The notes below the pieces were generated by a model that did not search any database, had not been told where the DNA came from, and was given only the letters and a program-made list of their open reading frames with translations. The position numbers and the translations under genes were made by a program. Below, in pieces: positions 24,970-36,917 of a stretch of 43,722 bases of DNA (position 1 is its first letter; each line of letters begins with the position of its first letter). Location of the stretch: positions 1-43,722 of the forward strand of contig JACDEL010000016.1 of assembly GCA_013816405.1 (NCBI GenBank), written 5' to 3'. Source of the stretch: Chloroflexota bacterium (GTDB taxonomy: Bacteria; Chloroflexota; Limnocylindria; QHBO01).

Positions 24970-25671
24970 ATGGAGATCGCGCCGGGCGTCCACGCCGTCA
25001 GGCTGTTGAACGTCTACGCATTCCTCGTCGACGAGCCGCAGCTGACCCTGATCGACGCCGGCCTGATTGGCTCGGCGGGCCGGGTACAGCGGCAGGTCGA
25101 GCGGATCGGACGTTCGCTGGACGACCTAGCTCGCATCATCTGCACGCACGCCCATCCCGACCACATCGGCGGCGTTCGAGAGCTGGCCGGCGAGCGAGAG
25201 GTCGAGGTGCTGATGCACCCCGCCGACCTGGATGGGCTGAGCGTCGGGCTGCGTGACGTAGTCGCGAACCGCAACCGCGGACAGCTGATCGCCTACTTCA
25301 CGAGGCACCCGGGCGAGGCGACACCGATCGAAGATGGCCAGGTGCTGCCGATCCTCGGAGGGCTGCGGGTGGTGCATACGCCCGGCCACACGCCGGGGAG
25401 CATCTGCCTGTACGCAAAGCGCCACAAGCTCCTGTTCGTGGGCGACACCCTGCAGGTGATCCGGGGGAAGGTCACCTTCGCCAGCCGTGTCTTCAGCGAG
25501 GACCTCGCGCTGGCTCGCGCCAGCGTCGCTCGCATGGCGGAGCTGGACGTCGAGACGATCGCCTTCAGCCACTATCCGCCGTTGCGCGATGGGGCGAACG
25601 AGGTGCTTCGCGGGCTCGCAGACCGGGCAACGGCCATGTCCGAGAGCAGGCGGCGAGCCGCAAGCCTCTAG
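24970..25671 (+). CDS. metallo-beta-lactamase-fold hydrolase
   Basis: The 233-aa protein has the MBL metal motif CTHAHPDHIGG (His 60, 62, Asp 64, His 65), a second ligand in VVHTPGHTPGSICLY, and the bridging Asp in KLLFVGDTLQV. Such enzymes hydrolyse thioesters, lactones or phosphodiesters, glyoxalase II being the best-known relative. With an acyl-ligase next in line, a thioesterase-like role is possible but unproven. Confidence 0.88.
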   Translation: MEIAPGVHAVRLLNVYAFLVDEPQLTLIDAGLIGSAGRVQRQVERIGRSLDDLARIICTHAHPDHIGGVRELAGEREVEVLMHPADLDGLSVGLRDVVANRNRGQLIAYFTRHPGEATPIEDGQVLPILGGLRVVHTPGHTPGSICLYAKRHKLLFVGDTLQVIRGKVTFASRVFSEDLALARASVARMAELDVETIAFSHYPPLRDGANEVLRGLADRATAMSESRRRAASL

Positions 25672-25718: not shown

Positions 25719-28307
25719 ATCGCCACGCTCACGCCGATCGCACCCGCCACGCCCGAGCCAAGCCCGCCAACCGCGGGCCTCGCCGCCGGCGCGGCGCCCA
25801 GTGCACCCACTCTCATCGGCCTGCTGCGCGATGCCGGACGGAACTACGCGGATCGCCCGGCCCTCCTCATCAAGCCAGGCTTTCGCACGCGCGTCTGGAC
25901 GTATCGGGACCTTGTCGACCTCGCGCCGCGCGTGGCGCGCGTGCTGACCGACCTGGGGCTGGAGCGGGGTGACCGGGTCCTGATCTGGGGAGTCAACCGG
26001 CCGGAATGGTCGCTCGGCTTCTTCGGGGCGCTCTTCGCGGGACTGGTGCTGGTGCCGCTCGACGTCCGCAGCCAGCCGGAATTCGTCGCCAAGGTTGCGC
26101 AGCGTACTCGCGCCAGGCTGGTCCTGGCCTCGATCCAGACCGCGCCATTGGCCGGAGGCCTGGACCTGCCGATGGTCCTCATCGAGTCGCTCCCGGACCG
26201 TGCTCGCAACGCCACGCCGCTGCCGACGCCCGAGCTTGCCGCGAGCGACCTTGCCGAGGTGGTCTTCACCTCTGGCACCACCGGTGAGCCGAAGGGGGCC
26301 ATGCTGACGCACGGCAACCTTGTCGCCAACGCAACCGCCCTGCGCGCGGTCTTCCCGTTCAAGCCGGACGAGCGACTCCTTTCGATCCTGCCCCTCTCGC
26401 ACATGTTCGAGCAGACCTGCGGGCTGATCGCGCCGTTCCTGGTCGGAGCGTCGATCGTCTATCCCGTCAGTCGCCAGCCGGCGGTGCTGATCCGCACCTT
26501 CCGCGAGTTCCGGGTGACAATGCTGCTGATCGTGCCAGCGGGCCTCAAGCTGCTGGACTCGGCCATCCAGCGCAAGGTCGATGCGTCCGGCAGGCACGAC
26601 ACCTTCGAGCGGCTGCACCGCATCGCCCGCCGCCTGCCGCGATTCGCGAAGCGGCTCCTGTTCCGTCCAGTCATCGGGCAGTTCGGTGGGCGCTTCCGGA
26701 CCCTGGCGATCGGGGCGGCGGCACTCGAGGAGGATCTCGCCCAGCGCTGGACCGACATGGGCTTCGACGTCCTGCAGGGCTACGGCGCCACCGAGCTGTC
26801 TCCGGCCGTCGCCTTCACGCGGCCCTCGCGCAATCGAAGCGGGACGGTCGGCGAGGCGGTGCCCGGGGTCGAGATCCGGATCGCGGCGGACGGCGAGATC
26901 CAGGTCCGCGGCCCGAACGTCTTCGCCGGGTACTGGGAGGACCCCGACGCGACGAAGGCGGTGCTCGACGGGGAGGGCTTCTACCACACGGGAGACATCG
27001 GCATGCTCGACGGCGAGGGCTTCCTGACGCTGCGCGGCAGGAAGAAGGACATGCTGGCCATGCCCGACGGGACCAAGGTCTACCCCGAGGACATCGAGGC
27101 CGTGCTGGCGCGTGACCCGCGCCTGCGCGACGCGACCGTTGTCGGCTGGCAGCCTCCCCGCGGCGAGCTGCGGGTCCAGGCCGTGCTCCTTCTCGACGAT
27201 CCGGTCGTGGCGGATGCCGTGGTCCGCGATGCCAACGCACAGCTCGGCGCCCACCAGCAGATCCGCGGATTCACCATCTGGCCTGATGAGGACCTTCCCC
27301 GAACCCACACCCTGAAGGTCAAGAAGCGGCTCGTGCTCGATCGCCTGGCGGAGCTCGAGAGCGGCGCGACGACGACCCACAGCGCAACCGGGCCCGCGGC
27401 GCCTCCGGTTTCAAGCCTCGAGGGCCTCGTGGCATCGGTTGCGAGCGTGCCGCTCGCGTCGGTCCAGCCAGACTCCCGCCTGTCGAGCGACCTCAACATG
27501 GACTCCCTGGCGCGAATCGAGCTGCTGAGCGTCATCGAAGAGGAGCTGGGCACCTTCGTCGATGACGGCGACCTCGATCCCGACACGAGCGTGCAGCAGC
27601 TGTCCAGCCTTATCGACGCTGCAAAGGACCAGAAACACGAGAGCGGCATCTTCGGCTGGCCGCTGAGCCCCATCGCTCGGGCCGCCGGGATCTTGATCCA
27701 GACCCTGATCCTCGTTCCGCTCTTCTTCAGCCTGTATCGGGTCCGCGTTACTGGCCTCGAGCGACTCCGCGGCTTGAAGGGACCGGCCCTCTTCACCCCG
27801 AACCACTGCCTCCACAACGACGTGGGGATCATCCTCACCCGCATCCCGCTTGCCTGGCGCTGGCACCTGTCGGTCGCCGCCGCGGCCGACGACATCTTCG
27901 GCAACCCGGTGCGGGGCTTCGGGTCGGCGCTCATCGGCAATGCGTTCCCGTTGGCACGGGAGGGGGCGGTGCGACGTTCCCTCGAGCTGCTCGGCGCCAG
28001 ACTCGACCGCGGCTTCTCGATCCTGATCTTTCCGGAGGGGAAGCTGACCGTCGGCGGCCCCACCCAGCCCTTCAAGTCGGGGACCGGCCTGGTCGCCGTC
28101 GAGGGGGCCACCCCGGTGGTGCCGATGAAGCTGAAGGTGACCCGCATGTCGCGCCTCGACGCCCGCCGCGAGCCCGCTTTTGCGGGCGAGCGCTTGCCCT
28201 GGCGGGGAGAGGTCGAGCTCGTCTTTGGCGATCCCATCCAGTTCGCCTGGGACACTGACCACCTGGCAGCCACGCAGCAGCTGGAGGCCGCCGTTGCCGC
28301 GCTCTGA
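25719..28307 (+). CDS. acyl-AMP ligase - acyl carrier - acyltransferase fusion
   Basis: One open frame encodes three domains. AMP-forming ligase: VVFTSGTTGEPKGAMLTHGN (about residue 183), GYGATELSPAV, FYHTGDIGMLDGEGFLTLRG. Carrier: SSDLNMDSLARIELLSVIEE (about 590), whose Ser would take phosphopantetheine. PlsC-type acyltransferase: HX4D box NHCLHND (about 695) and FPEGK (about 770). It probably activates a fatty acid, loads it on its own carrier and transfers it to an acceptor lipid. No ATG, GTG or TTG opens the frame before the ligase N-terminus. The best candidate is ATC 25719, four bases after GGGAGAGG; GTG 25932 would cut off a needed strand. An indel or mutated ATG is possible. Confidence 0.85.
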   Translation: MATLTPIAPATPEPSPPTAGLAAGAAPSAPTLIGLLRDAGRNYADRPALLIKPGFRTRVWTYRDLVDLAPRVARVLTDLGLERGDRVLIWGVNRPEWSLGFFGALFAGLVLVPLDVRSQPEFVAKVAQRTRARLVLASIQTAPLAGGLDLPMVLIESLPDRARNATPLPTPELAASDLAEVVFTSGTTGEPKGAMLTHGNLVANATALRAVFPFKPDERLLSILPLSHMFEQTCGLIAPFLVGASIVYPVSRQPAVLIRTFREFRVTMLLIVPAGLKLLDSAIQRKVDASGRHDTFERLHRIARRLPRFAKRLLFRPVIGQFGGRFRTLAIGAAALEEDLAQRWTDMGFDVLQGYGATELSPAVAFTRPSRNRSGTVGEAVPGVEIRIAADGEIQVRGPNVFAGYWEDPDATKAVLDGEGFYHTGDIGMLDGEGFLTLRGRKKDMLAMPDGTKVYPEDIEAVLARDPRLRDATVVGWQPPRGELRVQAVLLLDDPVVADAVVRDANAQLGAHQQIRGFTIWPDEDLPRTHTLKVKKRLVLDRLAELESGATTTHSATGPAAPPVSSLEGLVASVASVPLASVQPDSRLSSDLNMDSLARIELLSVIEEELGTFVDDGDLDPDTSVQQLSSLIDAAKDQKHESGIFGWPLSPIARAAGILIQTLILVPLFFSLYRVRVTGLERLRGLKGPALFTPNHCLHNDVGIILTRIPLAWRWHLSVAAAADDIFGNPVRGFGSALIGNAFPLAREGAVRRSLELLGARLDRGFSILIFPEGKLTVGGPTQPFKSGTGLVAVEGATPVVPMKLKVTRMSRLDARREPAFAGERLPWRGEVELVFGDPIQFAWDTDHLAATQQLEAAVAAL

Positions 28308-28335
28308 CGCGCCCTCCGCGCTGTCCTGACTGGAG

Positions 28336-29136
28336 ATGCTTCCCGTGCTGGCCCGATTCGGGCCATTCACCATCGAGACGCACGATTTCTTCACGATCAT
28401 CGGCCTGCTGGCCGGGTTCGGGCTCTATTACCGCGCGCTGCGACGCGACGGGATCCTGGGCGCGCCGATCGCCCTGATCAGCGTGGCCGCGATCCTCGGC
28501 GGCGCCCTGGGTGCGCGGCTCATCACGTCATGGGAGGTCCTCGGCGACGTCCAGACCGCGGGGCTGCCCCTGACCTACGTCCTGACCCACGGTCCCAGGA
28601 GCATCATCGGTGGCCTGGCCGGCGGCTACCTGGCCATCGTCCTGAGCAAGCGAGCTCTCGGATACACGCTGTCGACGGGCGACTACTACGCCGCTGCGAT
28701 TCCGCTGGCGCTGGCCATCGGACGGGTCGGCTGCTTCCTCTCCGAGCTGCCGCTCGGGACGCCGACCAGCCTGCCATGGGGCATGACCGTGTCGCCGGAG
28801 TCAGCGGCCGCATTCCTCCGCTGCCCAGGCTGCGGTGGACCGATGCACCCCAGCATGCTTTATGAGATCGGCTTCCACGTCGGCGCATTCGCGCTGATCG
28901 CGACGCGCAGCCCCCTCTTTCCCGTTCGCGGCGACACGCTCAAGGCCTATCTATTGGCCTACGGCGTCTTTCGCTTCGGGATCGAGTTCATTCGCGGCAA
29001 CGAGGTCCAGTGGCTTGGCCTGACCGGCCCGCAACTGGTGCTGATCCCGCTGGTTGCGTGGCTCGCGCTTCACTTCGTTCGCCAATTGCGCAACGGTGTC
29101 TACCGTATGCCGCTGCCCCAGCCCGCAATTGCGTAG
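28336..29136 (+). CDS. lgt: prolipoprotein diacylglyceryl transferase
   Basis: The 266-aa protein has about seven membrane segments and the Lgt hallmarks: GPFTIETHDFFTIIGLLAGF, GPRSIIGGLAGGYLA, and the signature AIGRVGCFLSELPLG with its essential Arg, then HPSMLYEIGFHVGAF. It attaches diacylglycerol to lipobox cysteines, as needed by the several lipoproteins in this window. A CPGCG insertion before HPSMLYE adds a CxxC pair not typical of E. coli Lgt. It lies 28 bases after the ligase/acyltransferase fusion and nine before a membrane protein. Confidence 0.92.
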   Translation: MLPVLARFGPFTIETHDFFTIIGLLAGFGLYYRALRRDGILGAPIALISVAAILGGALGARLITSWEVLGDVQTAGLPLTYVLTHGPRSIIGGLAGGYLAIVLSKRALGYTLSTGDYYAAAIPLALAIGRVGCFLSELPLGTPTSLPWGMTVSPESAAAFLRCPGCGGPMHPSMLYEIGFHVGAFALIATRSPLFPVRGDTLKAYLLAYGVFRFGIEFIRGNEVQWLGLTGPQLVLIPLVAWLALHFVRQLRNGVYRMPLPQPAIA

Positions 29137-29145
29137 GAGGGACCG

Positions 29146-30015
29146 ATGGATCCGGCAATCAAGCGCTACCTGGACGAACACGGCGCCACGTACAGCCGCG
29201 AGGCCCTGCGGCAGAGCCTCGTCGATGCCGGCCACGATTCCGATGCGGTGGACGCGGCCATTGCCGAGTGGGAGGCCCAGCGCACCGGGACGAATGTGGA
29301 TCCAGAGAAGAGACGGACCTTCGGCCGATGGGCCATCGGCCTGCACGTTGCCGCCCTGGTGGCCGTCTTCCTCCTGCTTGTTGTCCTGAAGGGATCCACC
29401 GCCATCGGCCTTGCGCTCCTGGGTTGCGCCGCCCTGGGCGTCGCCATGCTCATCGGCTGGGCGATCTCTACGCTGGTCGGTCGCGCTCTGCTGCCGCGGG
29501 CAGGGGTAATCGTGGCACTCGTCGTCCCGGCCATCTCAGCCTTCCTCTTGGCCGGCACCTGTTTCGCGCTGCTGAACACCTCCGTGAGCACGCCTCCCCG
29601 CCCGGGGTCGGTCCAACTCGAAATCCTCGCTCCGCGAGCGTTCGAGGGATCTGGCGCCGCATCCTGCTACGTCGGCGGCGGGAGCGTGGGGGTACAGGTC
29701 AATTCAGGGCCGCTCGGTACGCTCGGGGGAAAACCCCTCAGCGTTTCCCTGAGCTGGTACGGCGACGATCCCAACAACCCGGCTCCCGCTTCGGGCACGA
29801 GCCTGTCCGTGTTCCTGGACGCGACTGGAGAAGGCGAAGCAGGGCCAACGTCCTTTAGCGTGATCTTCAGCACCAAATTGGTCGTCGACGCGGCACCGGA
29901 CGGACTGACCGGGACGATCGGGTTCGAGGGGCTGGCCTCGGAGCCTAGCGGGGCGCCGGGCCAGCCGACGACGCCCGAGGTCATATCCGGATCCGTCAAC
30001 TGGAACTGCGAATGA
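29146..30015 (+). CDS. membrane protein with extracytoplasmic C-terminal domain
   Basis: AGGAGGG closely precedes the ATG. An N-terminal helical part resembling a short UBA/CUE-like bundle (KRYLDEHGATYSREALRQSL) is followed by three membrane segments (about 64-82, 85-109, 117-142) and a 140-residue beta-rich domain ending GSVNWNCE. Cys 174 and the penultimate Cys could form a disulfide outside. Family not recognised. Its stop overlaps the start of the radical SAM gene by four bases, so the two are translationally coupled. Confidence 0.7.
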   Translation: MDPAIKRYLDEHGATYSREALRQSLVDAGHDSDAVDAAIAEWEAQRTGTNVDPEKRRTFGRWAIGLHVAALVAVFLLLVVLKGSTAIGLALLGCAALGVAMLIGWAISTLVGRALLPRAGVIVALVVPAISAFLLAGTCFALLNTSVSTPPRPGSVQLEILAPRAFEGSGAASCYVGGGSVGVQVNSGPLGTLGGKPLSVSLSWYGDDPNNPAPASGTSLSVFLDATGEGEAGPTSFSVIFSTKLVVDAAPDGLTGTIGFEGLASEPSGAPGQPTTPEVISGSVNWNCE

Positions 30016-31568
30016 CGACCGCGCTGCCGCTGCGCGCCTACACACCGCTGCGGATGGTGCTGACCGTCTGCGGTCATTGCTTCACCGAGGATCCCGACCG
30101 CGAGGTCGACTACGCGATGGACATTCTGCAGGGCAACCTCGTCGCCCAAGACGGATCCGTCTACCTGCGACGGCATTGCCGGAGAGGTCATGGCGAGGTC
30201 GTGAGCCTGTACGACGAGGACCATGGCCTGTGGGAGTACCTCCAGCAGTGGCGCGTGCCGACCCGCGAGATCATCCCCGACACGCCTGACAACGTGATGC
30301 CGATCCCGATGGGCTACGCCAACGGGCTCGGCCGCCTCCAGACGCAGCACTCCTGCATCCTCCTGCTCGACGTCACGGAGCACTGCAACCTCAACTGTCC
30401 GACATGCTTCGCCGCGTCGGGCACGAATGTGGGCCGGTACGCTCGCCTGCCGCACATCCTGCGGACCCTGGACGCCTCAATCGAGCGCGAGGGCGGCAAG
30501 ATCGACGTGCTGATGCTGTCCGGGGGCGAGCCGACCGTGCACCCGGAGATCGTCGAGATCATCCAGGCCGCCGTGGAGCGCAACGTCACCCGGGTGCTCC
30601 TCAACACCAACGGGATTCGCATCACCAAGGACGACCGCTTCCTGGAGGCCATGCATAAGCTGCGCGATCGGGTCGAGGTCTACCTCCAGTTCGACGGCTT
30701 CGACCTCGAGACGCACCTTTTCCACCGTGGCGAGGATCTTCGCGCCATGAAGGCGGAGGCGATCAAGCGCCTGACCGATGCGCGGATCTTCACAACGCTC
30801 GCCATGGTGGTAGCCCAGGGCGTCAACGACCACGAGATCGGGGCGGTGGCGGACTTCGCCTTCGACACCGATTATGTGGCCGGCGTCGCCTACCAGCCGG
30901 TCTTCGGCTCCGGTCGGGCCAACCCGATCGATCCGATGCAGCGCATGACGACGACCGGCGTGCTCAAGCGCCTGGGTCCCCAAACCGGTGGTCGAGCCGA
31001 TGCCTCCGACTTCATCGCCCTGCCGTGCAGCCACCCGGACTGCTGTGCCATCACCTATTTCGTGAAGGAGGACAACGGTGTCCATCGGTCTATCCCGAAG
31101 CTTGTGGGCATCGAGCGTCTCAAGGACAACCTCTCCATCGTCGGCAATCGCATCGCAGCCGACGACCAGCTGTGGGACGCGCTGATCGGGATGATGAGCG
31201 AGACGACGACGATCAGCCGCCCCGAGCTGATCGATTACATCATCAACATCTGCGAGGCCTGCGACATCGGCGTTGGCGGGTTCATGAAGGACATCGGTCG
31301 TTACCTCGTGAAGGGCGAACGGGCGGCGGAGCTCGTGGCACTGCGCACCAAACGGCTCTCGGTCAAGTCGTTCATGGACGCCTGGACGATGAACATCGAG
31401 CGCCTGCAACAATGCTGCGTCCACGTCGGCTCGACCGATGGCGAGGACCCGGTGCGCATCCCGTTCTGCGCTCGTCAGCTCTTCGGCAACTTGCGGCGAC
31501 GCACCTCCGCCGGGCAGGTGCCTGCCCGCCAGCTTGTGGAGCTTGACCGGCTGATGGCTGGACCGTGA
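30012..31568 (+). CDS. radical SAM enzyme, tetraether-lipid-synthase (Tes)-like
   Basis: The 518-aa protein has an N-terminal metal-binding segment (Cys 20/23, Cys 56, His 60), then the radical SAM cluster motif CNLNCPTC (Cys 125, 129, 132), the SAM-binding LMLSGGEPTVHPEIVEII, and C-terminal cysteines in LPCSHPDCCAITYF, NICEACDIG, and QQCCVHVGSTDGEDPVRIPF followed by C. From memory, this architecture and the FMDAWTMNIERLQQCCVH-type ending resemble the MJ0619/Tes group, which couples lipid tails into membrane-spanning tetraethers; homologs occur in bacteria. Other uncharacterised members exist, so the subfamily call is moderate. Its neighbours are lipid and membrane genes. Confidence 0.8.
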   Translation: MTTALPLRAYTPLRMVLTVCGHCFTEDPDREVDYAMDILQGNLVAQDGSVYLRRHCRRGHGEVVSLYDEDHGLWEYLQQWRVPTREIIPDTPDNVMPIPMGYANGLGRLQTQHSCILLLDVTEHCNLNCPTCFAASGTNVGRYARLPHILRTLDASIEREGGKIDVLMLSGGEPTVHPEIVEIIQAAVERNVTRVLLNTNGIRITKDDRFLEAMHKLRDRVEVYLQFDGFDLETHLFHRGEDLRAMKAEAIKRLTDARIFTTLAMVVAQGVNDHEIGAVADFAFDTDYVAGVAYQPVFGSGRANPIDPMQRMTTTGVLKRLGPQTGGRADASDFIALPCSHPDCCAITYFVKEDNGVHRSIPKLVGIERLKDNLSIVGNRIAADDQLWDALIGMMSETTTISRPELIDYIINICEACDIGVGGFMKDIGRYLVKGERAAELVALRTKRLSVKSFMDAWTMNIERLQQCCVHVGSTDGEDPVRIPFCARQLFGNLRRRTSAGQVPARQLVELDRLMAGP

Positions 31569-31879
31569 GCGCCGAGACCCCGACCCTCGATCCGATCAAG
31601 GCCTGGCTAGCCGCCCGCCCGCCGCTGACTCGCGCCCAGAAGTACGACCGCCTGGCATTCACATTCTGCAAGATGGGGACGGTCGGGCTGATCGCCTGGC
31701 TGCTGACCCCGGCCATCTTCGTGCTGGGGGTGGCGCTGGTCGCCATCGGCCTCTATGGGAAGGCGGTCGCCCTCGGCATCACGCGAAGCCAGTGCATCCT
31801 GCGTCGGCCGCTGTTGATCATGGGCTTCTGGGCCGCGGTCGCCGCCGCCGACGCCACGTGGCTGCTCCTCCTGCGCTGA
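31565..31879 (+). CDS. small membrane protein (104 aa)
   Basis: GTG 31565 overlaps the radical SAM stop (GTGA). The product has a soluble start (LDPIKAWLAARPPLTRAQKY) and three hydrophobic stretches (about 48-57, 61-77, 85-103), with Cys in the loop TRSQCILRRPLL. No family recognised. Tight coupling to the radical SAM gene suggests a membrane partner for it, by context only. Confidence 0.65.
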   Translation: MSAETPTLDPIKAWLAARPPLTRAQKYDRLAFTFCKMGTVGLIAWLLTPAIFVLGVALVAIGLYGKAVALGITRSQCILRRPLLIMGFWAAVAAADATWLLLLR

Positions 31880-31951: not shown

Positions 31952-32374
31952 GTGGCTCGCGACGAGAAGCTCGACCTGCTGCACAGCATCCCGCTCTTCG
32001 ACCGGTTCGATCGAAAGCACCTCGAGCGGCTCGGCATGCTGACCGAGGAGGTTGACGTGCCTGCCGGCAAGGTCCTCATCCGGCAGGGGGAGCTCGGCGA
32101 CGACCTGATGGTGATCGTCTCCGGAACGGTCGATGTGGAGCGCGACGGCGCCCAGGTGAACGCGCTCGGGACCGGCGACTTCTTCGGCGAGATCGCGCTC
32201 ATCGATCGTGGGCCGCGCTCGGCCACCGTCACGGCCACGACGCCAAGCCGGCTGCTCGTCATCAATCACCGCGACTTCCATGCGCTGATGGATGAGTTCC
32301 CCGAGGTTGCCGCCCAGGTGCTGGTGACCCTCGCCCACCGCCTGCGCAGCCTGGATCCGGCCGCCGTCCACTAG
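31952..32374 (+). CDS. cyclic nucleotide-binding domain protein
   Basis: GTG 31952 follows GGAGGAGG. The 140-aa product is one cNMP-binding domain: LLHSIPLFDRFDRKHLERLG, VLIRQGELGDDLMVIVSGTV, and the phosphate-binding cassette GDFFGEIALIDRGPRSATVT with the conserved Glu and Arg. There is no DNA-binding or channel domain, so it is a stand-alone sensor. The giant cyclase at 9141-12320 could supply the ligand; the link is inference. Confidence 0.9.
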   Translation: MARDEKLDLLHSIPLFDRFDRKHLERLGMLTEEVDVPAGKVLIRQGELGDDLMVIVSGTVDVERDGAQVNALGTGDFFGEIALIDRGPRSATVTATTPSRLLVINHRDFHALMDEFPEVAAQVLVTLAHRLRSLDPAAVH

Positions 32375-32510
32375 GCCACGGGGCCCTGCGGCACTTTGGA
32401 GTCTGTCATGGGGATGTGACATCAGCGCGACAGCTCGGCGGCTTGCCCGCAACACGTTGGCGGCCATTGTCCCGATGTCCAACATCGCCATCAAGACAAG
32501 GAGAGCCACG

Positions 32511-32729
32511 ATGGACGACGCAAAGCGAGCCGGCCGCGAGGTCGAGACCGAGACGAAGAAGGGGATTCGTGAGCTGGACGGCCACGATCTCGGCGACGAC
32601 ATCGGGAATGCCGGCGATGAGGTCAAGAAGGACCTCGGCAACTTCGGCGACGATCTGCGCCGGGGCGGCCGCGAAGTCGGCCGCGAGATCGACGATCAAG
32701 TCCACGACAAGGACGACACCCCCCGCTGA
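32511..32729 (+). CDS. small charged, disordered stress-type protein (72 aa)
   Basis: ATG 32511 has AAGGAG at a good distance. The sequence is very hydrophilic, with repeated G-(D/N)-D-(L/V/I) and R-E-V/E-I elements (GIRELDGHDLGDDIGNAGDE, RRGGREVGREIDDQVHDKDD). It resembles LEA-like or CsbD-like stress proteins in composition, without a clear family match. A terminator follows directly. Confidence 0.6.
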   Translation: MDDAKRAGREVETETKKGIRELDGHDLGDDIGNAGDEVKKDLGNFGDDLRRGGREVGREIDDQVHDKDDTPR

Positions 32730-32744
32730 GGCGGTACACCAGGG

Positions 32745-32777
32745 AAGGCCCTCGAGGCGACGGCTCGGGGGCCTTTT
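32745..32777 (+). terminator. rho-independent terminator
   Basis: AAGGCCCTCGAG, short loop, CTCGGGGGCCTTTT: a 10-12-bp stem with one mismatch and a T tract, 15 bases after the stop of the charged small protein. Confidence 0.8.
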
Positions 32778-32929
32778 CGTTGCCAGCACGGGGCAACACG
32801 GGGATGCAACGCCGTTGATAGCCCCCAGATGGTCTGTGGCAGGCCTTTCGAGAGAGTCCGATTCGTATGGTTTGAGTCGATGGCGGCCCAGCATCGGGCC
32901 GCACGCTCAACTCGCAGAGGTATCAGATC

Positions 32930-33076
32930 ATGCTGTGGACGATTTTGGTCATCGTGCTCGTGCTCTGGCTACTCGGTCTCATTGGATCAGTTGGCGGGGG
33001 CCTCATCCACCTGCTCCTGCTGGTGGCCGCCGTGATTCTCGTTGTCCAGCTCCTATCTGGCCGCCGCGCGGTCTAA
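32930..33076 (+). CDS. lmo0937-family small membrane protein (48 aa)
   Basis: ATG 32930 with AGAGG upstream encodes MLWTILVIVLVLWLLGLIGS, VGGGLIHLLLLVAAVILVVQ and LLSGRRAV: two hydrophobic helices joined by GSVGGG. This is the typical pattern of lmo0937-family proteins, widespread tiny inner-membrane proteins of unknown function, often near stress genes. It is complete and of normal length. It lies between other small stress-type genes. Confidence 0.85.
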   Translation: MLWTILVIVLVLWLLGLIGSVGGGLIHLLLLVAAVILVVQLLSGRRAV

Positions 33077-33089
33077 CAGAGCCGGACGG

Positions 33090-33127
33090 GGCCAGGGGGG
33101 ATTGGCCAGTCAGGGGGGATTGGCCAA
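33090..33127 (+). repeat. 18-bp tandem duplication
   Basis: CAGGGGGGATTGGCCA occurs twice, with two-base spacers (GT, AC), in the gap between two small genes. Confidence 0.7.
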
Positions 33128-33173
33128 CAAACGCCGGCAGAGCAGCTGGCCCACGTCCGAACGGAGGTTCCGG

Positions 33174-33368
33174 ATGCCACAGGGAGCGTGGTCGCCGAAG
33201 CGCGAACGACAGTACAAGCACATCAAGGAGAGCGAGCGCGAGGCAGGCCGATCCAACGATAAGGCCGAGGAGATCGCTGCTCGCACGGTCAACAAACAAC
33301 GGTCCGAGGCGGGAGAGACCAGGTCCTCACGTCGCGGAAGAAGTAACGGAGCAGCGCAATGTGCCTGA
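33174..33368 (+). CDS. small basic protein of the type often annotated as plasmid stabilization
   Basis: ATG 33174 has GGAGG six bases upstream. The 64-aa product starts MPQGAWSPKRERQYKHIKES and has AEEIAARTVNKQRSEAG, a pattern seen in short proteins commonly labelled plasmid stabilization protein, although a biochemical role is not established. The tail is Arg/Ser-rich. Its 3' end overlaps the next gene's start by ten bases. Confidence 0.6.
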   Translation: MPQGAWSPKRERQYKHIKESEREAGRSNDKAEEIAARTVNKQRSEAGETRSSRRGRSNGAAQCA

Positions 33369-33556
33369 CCTGCGGCTGCGGCGACGCTCACAAGCCCATG
33401 GGTCGCAACGTGACATACGAGGACATCCGCGACATCGCCGTCGAGAACGAGAAGACCGTGGACGAGACGCTCAGCATCCTGGCGACGACGGCCTCGGCGG
33501 ATCGCAGCGACCATCAGCAGGAATACGACCGGCCCTGGGACACCGGCAAGCGCTAG
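33359..33556 (+). CDS. small CxxCxC protein (65 aa)
   Basis: ATG 33359 lies inside the end of the previous gene, with CGGAG upstream. The protein starts MCLTCGCGDAHKPMG, three Cys and a His that could bind zinc or a cluster, then NVTYEDIRDIAVENEKTVDE. Short proteins with this MCLTCGCG start occur in high-GC bacteria, function unknown. Last of the small-protein cluster. Confidence 0.65.
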   Translation: MCLTCGCGDAHKPMGRNVTYEDIRDIAVENEKTVDETLSILATTASADRSDHQQEYDRPWDTGKR

Positions 33557-33630
33557 GCCCACCGGGACTCGACCCGGACCCCGTCGACTGCTAATCTCCT
33601 GCTCGCCGGAGCCACGATCCCGGTCAGCGA

Positions 33631-33672
33631 GCGGGAGTAACTCAGTTGGCAGAGTGTCTGCTTCCCAAGCGG
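33631..33672 (+). pseudogene. 5' half of tRNA-Gly(CCC), truncated after the anticodon
   Basis: GCGGGAG (acceptor 5' strand), TA, a perfect D-arm ACTC...GAGT, then TCTGC-TTCCCAA-GC with anticodon CCC in a standard loop. The 3' anticodon strand, T-arm and acceptor 3' strand are missing; unrelated sequence follows. Tyrosine integrases often recombine in anticodon loops, and an integrase gene lies 1.5 kb further on. I read this as an attachment-site remnant. Confidence 0.65.
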
Positions 33673-34081
33673 TCTGTCGCTGGCCTCCTCTCCCTCCTTC
33701 TCAACTCACGACTCCAACACGTTCTTGCGTTGTCAGCGAGCGCCGTCGGGCCGACTTGGACCCAACCGTTCTGAGAGTTTCGAGAGCCGGTCGAGCACGA
33801 TGCAGAACCGTGCCTGTTCGAGGAGCAACCCGAGGTGGGGTAGTCGGCTGCGCCTCCCGGTGTTAGGCTGATGCTGAGGAGAGGCGTCTCCCACGAGGGG
33901 ACGCCCGAAGCCTCGACCCTGTACCGACCATCGAGCCGGCCCAGAGGTCCTATGCGAGCCCAGCCGCTCGCGATCTGGACCCAGGCCGGCCTCGTGATTC
34001 ATGGACCGGCCGATTGCAGAGGGACGGTCATGACCAAGCTCACGAAGGTTGCCAGTCGGGCTGGGCGTGGAGGACGTTGAC
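33673..34081 (+). other. element left end without a clear gene
   Basis: A short frame ending at TGA 34078 (peptide end MTKLTKVASRAGRGGR) and a hairpin around GGCGTCTCCC...GGGGACGCC (near 33886-33908) are present. Neither is convincing as a gene. Confidence 0.4.
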
Positions 34082-34729
34082 GTGGCGCGCCCGACGAAAC
34101 TCACGCCCGAAATCAGCGCCAAGATCCTCATGGCGCTGAAGGCCGGGAACTACCTGAATGTCGCGGCCGCGGCGGCCGGTATCAGCCAGGCGACGCTGCA
34201 CCGCTGGAAGCAAGACAAGCGTCCCGCCTACCGGGAATTCCGAGAGGACGTCGATCGGTCGATCGCCGAGGGCGAAGTGCTCTTGGTCGCCTCCGCCGCC
34301 CGCGCGGCTCTACAGAAGCCGATCGCCACGATGCGGTTCCTCGAACGCCGACATCCGGAGAAATGGGGCCGCGCCCGAGCCGACGCGGCCTACTCTGCAC
34401 CAGACGAGACCATCCACCTGGCGCTCATCGATGAGGCTCCCCGGAAGCCCGAGGGCCTCATGGGCGACATGGTGAACCTGCCACCGGAGTGGGCTTACCC
34501 GATCTATAAGCTGATCGCCGCCGCGGCGCGCGGCCGCACGCCAGAGCAGTTCTTCGAGGGCCACGATCGCTTAGCCGGACTTCGAGAGGGTGATTCGCCG
34601 TCGCCTCAATGGTGGAAGCTCGATGGCGTGCCCGTGGACTTGGTCGCAAGCACAGCGCCGGACGAGACCAAATCCTCTCCCGGCGAGCGCACTCGCCTGT
34701 CAACAGAAGCGACGCCTATCGACGACTAG
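34082..34729 (+). CDS. HTH protein, phage terminase small-subunit-like N-terminus
   Basis: GTG 34082 has GGAGG eight bases upstream. The N-terminal ARPTKLTPEISAKILMALKA then AAAAAGISQATLHRWKQDKR is a homeodomain-like HTH of the kind found in phage terminase small subunits, followed by TMRFLERRHPEKWGRA, also typical of that family. The C-terminal half has a Trp-containing segment and a charged tail. It may recognise element DNA. It is convergent with the XRE-type gene, overlapping by four bases. Confidence 0.7.
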   Translation: MARPTKLTPEISAKILMALKAGNYLNVAAAAAGISQATLHRWKQDKRPAYREFREDVDRSIAEGEVLLVASAARAALQKPIATMRFLERRHPEKWGRARADAAYSAPDETIHLALIDEAPRKPEGLMGDMVNLPPEWAYPIYKLIAAAARGRTPEQFFEGHDRLAGLREGDSPSPQWWKLDGVPVDLVASTAPDETKSSPGERTRLSTEATPIDD

Positions 34730-35124
34730 CCGTCGCGGGCTGCACCTCGGTCTCGTTGCCCGTGACGGGCCGCCAAGTATGCCGCGTAATCCGCGACGCT
34801 CGTCCGCTCCGCTGGGGTCAGGTCCCCGAACGGCTCAGCGGACGTTCCGCCAATCCCGAGGCGACTGAGCTCGGTCGCGAGCCGCCCGGGCCCAATCCCC
34901 CAGAGCGCCTCGAGGAGTTCGACGAGGGGGATGCCGGTCGCATCGGACGCTCGAGCAAGATCGGCCGGAGTCGGTCGCGCCCGTGATGGGCGAGATGCAT
35001 CGAGCAGCGCCGCGATATAGCCGGGGTCGCGGTCCATCACCGCGCTGAGGGCGCGCATCGAGCGGCCGGATCGGGCCAGTACGTCGCGAAGGGCCGCACG
35101 GAACACCTCGTCGGTCGGCTCCAT
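34726..35124 (-). CDS. XRE-like helix-turn-helix regulator
   Basis: The 132-aa product has an HTH_3-type fold: LRDVLARSGRSMRALSAVMD, RDPGYIAALLDASRPSRARP, PADLARASDATGIPLVELLE. The C-terminal part (TPAERTSVADYAAYLAARHG) probably dimerises. It is divergent from the integrase gene, with a set of inverted repeats between them, so it is the likely repressor of integrase and of itself. Confidence 0.75.
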   Translation of the reverse strand: MEPTDEVFRAALRDVLARSGRSMRALSAVMDRDPGYIAALLDASRPSRARPTPADLARASDATGIPLVELLEALWGIGPGRLATELSRLGIGGTSAEPFGDLTPAERTSVADYAAYLAARHGQRDRGAARDG

Positions 35125-35173
35125 CGTTCCTCCGAGTGGGGACGCCCAGGGCGGGCGCCATTCTCTTGATGAT

Positions 35174-35208
35174 TGCTTACCACGTCATTCTGACGTAATG
35201 TAACGTCA
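35174..35208 (+). promoter_or_regulatory. integrase promoter with triple operator half-sites
   Basis: TTGCTT (35174-35179), 16 bases, TAATGT (35196-35201), then six bases to the ATG. ACGTCA (35182), TGACGT (35191) and ACGTCA (35203) make two nested inverted repeats with 3- and 6-base spacers that cover the -10 box and the start codon. Confidence 0.6.
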
Positions 35209-36446
35209 TGTCAACCAGCCTCGGGACCATCGACGCGGGGACCGTCCGCGCGGAGCGTCCCGGGCAACAGACTGCGTTCGACGGATGGGGCGCCCGACGC
35301 GACGATCCCTTGCCGGCCGCGCCGAGCAGGCCGCTCCGGCCGCTTATCGCGGAGTTCACAGCCACCTTCGGGAGCATGTGGCGCCCAGTGACGCAGCGGA
35401 AGCACGCCGACGACTTCGCGCGCTTCATCGCCTGGCTCGAGACGAACCAGCTGCCGGTCACCACGGCCGCGCTGGCCTTCCCCACCCTGCTCGCGTACGT
35501 CGACGACTTGCGGGTGCGACCGAAGGTGACCGGGGTCTGGCGCGGCGCGCCCGACGCACTGACCCGCGCGCCTGCACGCGGATCCGCCTCGACGCTCAGC
35601 GTGAACACCGTCAACGCCTATGTCCGGCCGATCCGGAGCCTCGCGATCTGGCTCGCCGATGAGGGCATCCTGGCGGTCAACCCGTTCCGTCGGTCGCGCC
35701 GCAGAGCCGCGCTCAATCCCCTCCTCCCGTCCGAGGAGATCCCGACCAAGGGCGCCACGCTGGACGATCTGCGCATGCTCGAAGCTGGCTGCGCCGGGAA
35801 CCGGCCGATCGATCTGCGAGACCGAGCGATCACCTCGATCCTGGTGACGACCGCCGCCCGCAACTCGAGCGTCCGGCTCCTCCGCCTGGACGACGTCGAC
35901 TTCGCGCGCTCGGTCATCCGGTTCCGGCGGGCGAAGGGCGGCAAGACTCTTGAGCTCGCGCTCCAGCCCGCAACCCGAGCCGCGCTGACGGGCTATCTCG
36001 AGCGTGGCCGCCCGGCGCTCGTGGGACGTGCTGGGCCGGGCGCCGTGGCGACAGATGACCCCGGCTGGCTCTTCCCCTCGGCCCGCTCGGGGCCAGTGCA
36101 ACCGCTGACCATGAATGCCCTCTCCCTTATGGTGACCCGTCGCTACCGCGCGGGTGGTGGGACGCTGCGGTACTTCGGCTCGCACCGCATCCGCCATGCG
36201 ACCGCCACGCTGTTGGTCAACCACGGCATGCCGCTGGAGGAGGTAAGCCGCTACCTCGGTCATTCCTCGACCGACGTCACCCGCCGCTACGCCCAGCAGA
36301 CCCCCGAATCACTTGGTCGACGGGCGGCCGACGCGCTCGCCCAGGCCGGCCTCGTCGAGGCGCCGGGCCGCGGCGACCTCCTGATGATTCGCGTCAACGG
36401 TCGAGTTGTGGACGAGCTATCGGCCACACATAGATCGGGCGGGTAA
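35208..36446 (+). CDS. tyrosine recombinase/integrase
   Basis: The 412-aa protein has an N-terminal SAM-like core-binding domain (about 46-160) and a catalytic domain with the full active site: Arg 218 (TTAARNSSVRLL), Lys 243 or 246 (RRAKGGKTLEL), His 326 and Arg 329 (GSHRIRHATATLL), His 352 (YLGHSSTDVT) and Tyr 361 (RRYAQQ). It looks functional. It probably mobilises this element, with tRNA-Gly(CCC) as target. Transcription starts next to the ATG (leaderless geometry). Confidence 0.92.
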   Translation: MSTSLGTIDAGTVRAERPGQQTAFDGWGARRDDPLPAAPSRPLRPLIAEFTATFGSMWRPVTQRKHADDFARFIAWLETNQLPVTTAALAFPTLLAYVDDLRVRPKVTGVWRGAPDALTRAPARGSASTLSVNTVNAYVRPIRSLAIWLADEGILAVNPFRRSRRRAALNPLLPSEEIPTKGATLDDLRMLEAGCAGNRPIDLRDRAITSILVTTAARNSSVRLLRLDDVDFARSVIRFRRAKGGKTLELALQPATRAALTGYLERGRPALVGRAGPGAVATDDPGWLFPSARSGPVQPLTMNALSLMVTRRYRAGGGTLRYFGSHRIRHATATLLVNHGMPLEEVSRYLGHSSTDVTRRYAQQTPESLGRRAADALAQAGLVEAPGRGDLLMIRVNGRVVDELSATHRSGG

Positions 36447-36454
36447 CACGCGTA

Positions 36455-36727
36455 ATGATCGAGCACGACGACCCCGTCTTGGCCCTGTTGCCGGCCGTTG
36501 ACGACCTTCCAATTTCGTACCGTGAGCTGCCTACCAGAGAACGGGCTTGGCGCGGCAGGCTGATGCTGATGACCTGGATCCTGACGGGCAACGAGACCTA
36601 TGCCTGGTCGGTGGCGTTAGCTGACGGCGAGCCCCATAACACCGAGTCGCAACAGCTGGTCGCATCCGTACCCGACGACCGGCTACTTGATGAGCTGCGC
36701 CGGCGCCCGCTTAGGGGCCAGGCGTAG
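36455..36727 (+). CDS. hypothetical protein after the integrase (90 aa)
   Basis: ATG 36455 lies eight bases after the integrase stop. The product is soluble with LPISYRELPTRERAWRGRLM and MTWILTGNETYAWSVALADG, and an Arg-rich tail. No ribosome site of note and no family recognised. Position suggests co-transcription with the integrase. Confidence 0.5.
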   Translation: MIEHDDPVLALLPAVDDLPISYRELPTRERAWRGRLMLMTWILTGNETYAWSVALADGEPHNTESQQLVASVPDDRLLDELRRRPLRGQA

Positions 36728-36917
36728 GTCCAGCCGATCGGCCAGGTCGAGGCACCGTGGAGGCGCTCGCTAGGGCAACTCGGACGCGACTCCTGTCCTC
36801 GGTCGTCGGGGCGTGCGGAACTGCCCCGGCCATGGTCTTTCAACGACCCGTGTCACGCCGTGGGCGGTTGACGGAATGCCAGTCCACTCCGGCTCGCGTT
36901 CTGTTCGCGGCTGCGCG

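Follow-up and report, generated by a model that had tools for sequence, protein, structure and literature searches.

Tes, or GDGT-MAS (MJ0619; family NF045702), is an archaeal radical S-adenosylmethionine (SAM) enzyme that joins lipid tails, and two lipid pockets have been described in MJ0619 (PMC9433317). Its catalytic architecture is reportedly common to Mss, the bacterial membrane-spanning lipid synthase (PMC13274423), and bacterial Tes homologues, those of Chloroflexota included, have been reported and discussed, without proof, as enzymes of branched glycerol dialkyl glycerol tetraethers (brGDGTs) (PMC8941075, PMC11868695, PMC10087280). A contig of 43,722 nucleotides from a soil Chloroflexota bacterium (JACDEL010000016.1 of assembly GCA_013816405.1; the window, which means this whole stretch) contains a cluster of five forward-strand genes over positions 25719-31879, where a radical SAM gene related to Tes lies close to a paralog of Lgt, the prolipoprotein diacylglyceryl transferase. 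The conserved unit at this and related loci combines a divergent Lgt-like paralog with the radical SAM enzyme and with proteins that have three transmembrane (TM) helices; a membrane protein of about 100 residues is frequently present as well. The reading that we tentatively prefer is that the locus represents one case of a bacterial module that is widespread and moves horizontally, built on Lgt-like, three-TM and Tes-fold radical SAM proteins and involved in lipidation or lipid modification.

The radical SAM protein (518 residues; 30012-31568) is a Tes/TrsS-superfamily member of an Lgt-linked clade, in which a family scan detects PF04055 and a weak HMPTM zinc ribbon. Its highest NCBIfam score corresponds to TrsS (NF045646; 228 bits, cut-off 490), above the 192 bits obtained with Tes (cut-off 450), and as both scores lie under their cut-offs, the protein is by these profiles in neither equivalog. 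The only solved structure related to it over the full length is MJ0619 (phmmer, 7tol, E 2e-37), with 26% identity (E 6e-37). An AlphaFold2 model built from 31 relatives (predicted local distance difference test, 87; predicted template modelling score, 0.90) retrieved Tes 7tom as the top Foldseek match (E 2e-37, TM 0.75), and the matches that follow cover the core only. Alignment and model thus agree on a full-length Tes fold. In the phylogeny, where Tes is represented by a single archaeal sequence (MJ0619 residues 38-492, taken from the PDB alignment), the clade of the window protein is supported 100/100 with Tes outside, and constraining this clade with Tes costs 14 log-likelihood units, which disfavours the grouping and does not reject it (p-value of the approximately unbiased test, 0.07). 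By the available tests, the protein is not a Tes ortholog, so that of the Tes-like enzyme proposed in an initial annotation of this DNA the fold stands and the family membership is unsupported. The radical SAM gene of a genome from the same genus (G003, loci L021 and L129) is found in two reading frames, covering residues 3-216 and 234-516, due to a frameshift either in the gene or in the assembly.

The ligands of MJ0619 (PMC9433317) were mapped onto 18 members of the window protein's own clade and 19 other relatives. The rubredoxin-type site, C20xxC23...C56x3H60 (30069-30191), is invariant in the 37 relatives, with a last spacing one residue longer than in the CX2C...CX2H of Tes, and the radical SAM motif C125x3C129x2C132 (30384-30407) is also invariant. 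The C-terminal auxiliary cluster cysteines C344, C468, C469 and C486 (31041-31469), which align with C338, C455, C456 and C470 of Tes, are kept in 18/18 clade members and lost in a Patescibacteria/Omnitrophota group and in the Lgt-linked loci L150 and L157. The cysteine layout described at first, including the C-terminal C468C469xH...PFC486, is correct for the window protein, but the N-terminal auxiliary [4Fe-4S] cluster of Tes is not: at its expected place (30303-30341), the columns of Tes C73, C77, C80 and His read I98, N104, G107 and Q110, and all four ligands are gone. These cysteines occur in none of the 18 clade members and in 18 of the 19 other relatives. Unlike Tes, the window enzyme also carries K452 and V472 in place of Met439 and Tyr459 (the clade shows K in the first column and V, A, S or T in the second), whereas both residues are fully conserved among 1,000 archaeal homologues (PMC9433317). 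Three residues missing from MJ0619, H113, C115 and C339, are near-invariant in the family. In this last respect the enzyme resembles the TrsS and DVU_1556-linked enzymes, where C115 is shared and QH and C339 are found in most, but it differs from them in lacking the N-terminal auxiliary cysteines and in having an Lgt-like partner instead of a methyltransferase.

These residues bear on whether the protein could be a true membrane-spanning-lipid synthase, joining two glycerolipids through their tails (linear or iso-branched acyl chains) while the Lgt-like protein produces or transports the lipid substrate. Tail-linking by this enzyme is possible, given the full-length fold with MJ0619 as closest solved relative, the radical SAM and C-terminal auxiliary cysteines intact in the whole clade, the finding that Met439 and Tyr459 are not essential in MJ0619 variants, and the binding of ester-linked Escherichia coli phospholipids by Tes (PMC9433317). 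However, the score under the Tes cut-off, the separate clade, the missing N-terminal ligands and the family-specific H113, C115 and C339 make this explanation doubtful, and a search of the host genome with PF09989 and PF01869 gave no match to such PlsA/Ger-type domains. Moreover, neither Tes nor Mss is, as far as we are aware, known to be constantly paired with an Lgt paralog, and we know of no radical SAM partner of Lgt. An anaerobic ether-lipid route in the host was likewise rejected on the absence of PF09989 and PF01869 from its genome.

The Lgt-like protein (266 residues; 28336-29136) passes the gathering score of PF01790 (102 bits, 24.9 needed) but remains below the TIGR00544 cut-off (60 bits of 118.9), and its model shows a single significant Foldseek match, to Lgt of E. 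coli (5azb; E 1e-7, probability 1.00). As in Lgt, the equivalents of R143, R239, E243 and R246 are retained (R130, R213, E217 and R220). Diacylglyceryl transfer requires R143 and R239 (PMC4728403, PMC13251419), and the equivalents of these two residues are present in 30/30 Lgt-like sequences, which makes binding of a phospholipid donor by this protein likely. Unlike in Lgt, the signature GRxGNFxNxE reads GRVGCFLSE in the window protein and is not preserved, the N146 column being a cysteine in 24/30 sequences (C133 in the window copy) and E151 not being kept. The change N146C occurs in distant Lgt proteins (PMC13251419). The host has its canonical lgt elsewhere (G000:C80), which reaches 202 bits as compared to the 102 bits of the window copy. 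A third LGT-family gene of the host (G000:C1:6158-6808, locus L161; GRLGCFFTGCCAG; a 425-residue frame, 72 bits) does not adjoin any radical SAM gene of this family. His103 was considered as a marker of the paralog and dropped, as it is missing from the canonical Lgt of the host too, and Y, W or F have been reported at this position (PMC13251419).

Between the Lgt-like gene and the radical SAM gene of the window is encoded a small, hydrophobic membrane protein (29146-30015) lacking any family match, with an N-terminal helical domain, three TM helices and an outer domain. Its last TM helix ends in ...AFLLAGTC139, just before the outer domain, and this conserved cysteine (29560-29562), in a G-x-C context, is a candidate lipid acceptor. 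Across loci, the interval from the Lgt-like gene to the radical SAM gene encodes one to five proteins. Their N-termini are unrelated (UBA-like YTREAI helices, proline-rich regions or a zinc ribbon), but they share a three-helix plan, in which the last helix is preceded by basic residues and ends with G-x-C or a similar cysteine. The helix-end cysteine is present in 25/25 readable intervening proteins versus 1/43 control open reading frames (ORFs), and the positive-inside rule would place it at the outer face, like lipobox cysteines. The family of the 29146-30015 protein is multicopy, with three to five copies in G002, in Chloroheliaceae (L019) and in G316, where the N-terminal domain is conserved and the rest variable. 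In a sister genome (L126:6677-9654), four to five tandem copies separate the Lgt-like gene from the radical SAM gene. Such multiplicity would fit a peptide maturation system, where residues of the small membrane proteins would be the substrate of the radical SAM enzyme, their conserved N-terminal helical domain serving as a recognition tag, and the Lgt-like enzyme would lipidate these proteins too. This seems improbable, since the N-terminal parts differ wholly between lineages, no SPASM domain was detected and no core peptide is evident. The last gene of the cluster (31565-31879) encodes a small membrane protein of 104 residues with invariant FTFC and RxxC cysteines and no family match. A membrane protein of about 100 residues adjoins the radical SAM or the Lgt-like gene in most clade members. 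The reading of the 104-residue protein as a remote DUF4395 found no support (hhalign, 13 columns, 17.5% probability).

The neighbourhoods of related loci were scanned with hidden Markov models (HMMs) on stop-to-stop frames. At all own-clade loci whose sequence extends far enough, in Chloroflexota, Actinomycetota, Planctomycetota and UBP7, the Lgt-like gene adjoins the radical SAM gene, on either side. By tblastn, the pair is found in Chloroflexota, Acidimicrobiaceae, Nitriliruptoraceae, Planctomycetales and UBP7. Taking the superfamily as a whole, Lgt-like genes adjoin radical SAM relatives in Chloroflexota, Actinomycetota, Planctomycetota, UBP7, Bacteroidota, Omnitrophota and Patescibacteria, with Anaerolineales, Persicobacter (Bacteroidota) and Nonomuraea gerenzanensis (L153) among the carriers. 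The unit of Lgt-like gene, small membrane protein and radical SAM gene also occurs on the Mycobacterium avium plasmid pS2b (L154) and on a plasmid of Mycobacterium branderi (L155), whose annotations name the Lgt-like gene a 'prolipoprotein diacylglyceryl transferase family protein'. That it is carried by plasmids of mycobacteria and by an actinomycete that can be cultivated indicates that the module moves between phyla. An Lgt-like gene scoring over 300 bits was found in 8/61 related genomes (the next score is 163 bits), and seven of these eight, the only genomes of the set with a full-length radical SAM relative, carry this relative adjacent to it. In the eighth, G010, the Lgt-like gene is on a 3.1-kb contig that also holds small membrane proteins and the end of a fusion gene described below, and that stops before the radical SAM position. 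Moreover, the distance matrices of Lgt-like and radical SAM proteins correlate (r = 0.75, 27 loci, 0/5000 permutations), a value to which shared descent contributes. Placing all Lgt-linked radical SAM genes in one clade was rejected in a tree test (p 2.7e-53), and the pairing has therefore been kept or regained on several branches. That these are ordinary neighbours without a joint function is hardly credible: clusters can be co-inherited on mobile elements, but the pair persists despite varied gene order in about seven phyla and on several separate branches, with a single clade rejected.

The superfamily is split by its partners, the same-strand neighbour being either Lgt-like or a DVU_1556/ArsM-like methyltransferase for nearly all members with enough flank. 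A TrsS-like radical SAM gene followed by such a methyltransferase was observed in Streptomyces, Pseudonocardia, Mycolicibacterium and many Chloroflexota (L027, L061, L105-L119, L158 and others). Some of these loci also carry MauE, CcdA or redoxin genes, and their radical SAM proteins score under the TrsS cut-off. Operons of Omnitrophota and Patescibacteria (L029, L030, L052) show the order radical SAM, ICMT-like methyltransferase, DUF4395 and Lgt-like gene.

A different explanation would be a TrsS-like chemistry on thiols or small molecules, where a modified thiol, selenol or cofactor is subsequently alkylated by the adjoining transferase. One slot filled by Lgt-like, DVU_1556/ArsM-like or ICMT/MddA-like alkyl transferases points in this direction, as do CcdA, redoxin, MauE and DUF4395 near the sister enzymes and the fact that TrsS can be a selenoprotein (PMC13188914). 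It is nevertheless unlikely for the window's clade, where no such thiol-redox gene was seen beside the radical SAM genes, a lipid-type neighbour is kept throughout and the Tes fold is organised around pockets for lipids. A variant of this idea would combine both chemistries: the radical SAM enzyme would halt at the sulfur stage of the Tes reaction, placing a sulfur of its C-terminal cluster on an unactivated carbon of a lipid tail, and the Lgt-like enzyme would add a diacylglyceryl group to the resulting thiol, giving thioether-bridged and possibly membrane-spanning lipids, whereas in the sister systems the thiol would be methylated. This proposal is drawn by analogy with Tes, which makes the sulfur-containing lipid S-AG as an intermediate when SAM is limiting (PMC9433317), and from the fact that every partner is potentially thiol-alkylating. 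It looks quite improbable, and as a general rule it is opposed by the Lgt-linked relatives that lack the C-terminal cluster cysteines.

Under the preferred reading of a lipidation or lipid-modification module, the Lgt-like enzyme would move a diacylglyceryl group from a phosphatidylglycerol-type lipid onto the helix-end cysteine, which would act as an embedded lipobox (K/R - TM - GxC). The radical SAM enzyme, through its radical SAM and C-terminal clusters, would abstract a hydrogen from an alkyl chain at the cytosolic side, either that of the lipid anchor or those of neighbouring lipids, and modify this chain, the N-terminal cluster of Tes having presumably been dropped in this module. The constant gene pairing, the co-occurrence and co-variation of the two proteins, the Tes fold with the lipid pockets described in MJ0619, the separate canonical lgt of the host, the retained donor-binding arginines, the radical SAM and C-terminal auxiliary cysteines in 18/18 clade members and the helix-end cysteine speak for this scheme, where genes and residues are observed while the lipidation and the radical step are inferred. 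Several points weigh against it. Lgt works at the outer face of the membrane and enzymes of the Tes type in the cytosol, and a substrate common to both therefore calls for an explanation. The GxC motif differs from the canonical lipobox, and the signature residues N146 and E151 are altered, an N146C paralog being taken for a weak Lgt and a second Lgt of Mycobacterium smegmatis being presumably weak (PMC13251419). In the Lgt-linked loci of Patescibacteria and Omnitrophota, an ICMT-like methyltransferase and DUF4395 replace the GxC protein and the radical SAM proteins have no C-terminal auxiliary cysteines, while the sister radical SAM clades pair with a methyltransferase and without Lgt. Finally, the counts are inflated by near-copies, the controls for the helix-end cysteine were called ORFs, and the support comes from sequence and models.

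Regarding the cluster as a whole, the five genes named in the initial annotation are all open, separated by short gaps or by four-base overlaps, and the overlaps flanking the radical SAM gene are exact (30012-30015 and 31565-31568). The first gene (25719-28307) encodes a fusion of acyl-AMP ligase (AMP-binding PF00501, 252 bits), carrier (PP-binding PF00550, 30 bits) and PlsC acyltransferase (PF01553, 44 bits). Its first codon at 25719 is ATC, an unusual start that is plausible because a genome of the same genus (G002) shows TTG at the equivalent position behind the same GAGAGG motif. By tblastn and HMM searches, the fusion is confined to two genera of the host's family, one of them the host's own, and it is absent near relatives elsewhere, so that it was rejected as a member of the core module. 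A membrane-spanning-lipid cluster fed with acyl chains by the fusion, as originally suggested, is partly supported: the Tes fold and a conserved neighbour from the lipid-transferring Lgt family speak for it, and support is missing for Tes membership and for the fusion as general supplier; in the host's family the fusion may have been added, perhaps as an acyl-chain feed. Of the flanking forward-strand genes, a metallo-beta-lactamase-fold hydrolase upstream (24970-25671) is syntenic only within the genus, as tblastn of the window genes on relatives indicated, and a cyclic-nucleotide-binding domain protein downstream (31952-32374) is syntenic in the genus. Further downstream, a recombinase of the phage integrase family (35208-36446) lies in a region with few recognisable genes (32416-36813).

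A last question concerns the bacterial homologues already counted as Tes. Methyltransferase-linked proteins and the Lgt-linked ones of Anaerolineales match MJ0619 at E 1e-73 to 1e-86 with 32-35% identity, and they pass BLAST limits of the type used in surveys, whereas the window's clade fails them, in a comparison where MJ0619 was the query and not MA_1486 as in the published survey. Tallies of 'Tes homologues' in bacteria, from which the makers of branched tetraethers are inferred, therefore probably include families with other partners. In open-access literature, no report of the Lgt/radical SAM pairing was found, and from its sequences the module, in which an Lgt paralog consistently accompanies a Tes-fold radical enzyme in about seven phyla of bacteria, looks like an undescribed bacterial lipid-modification system. 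The presence of the module in the cultivable N. gerenzanensis and in M. branderi leaves it open to direct testing, and the function of these enzymes bears on the origin of bacterial membrane-spanning lipids and on the climate proxies built on them.

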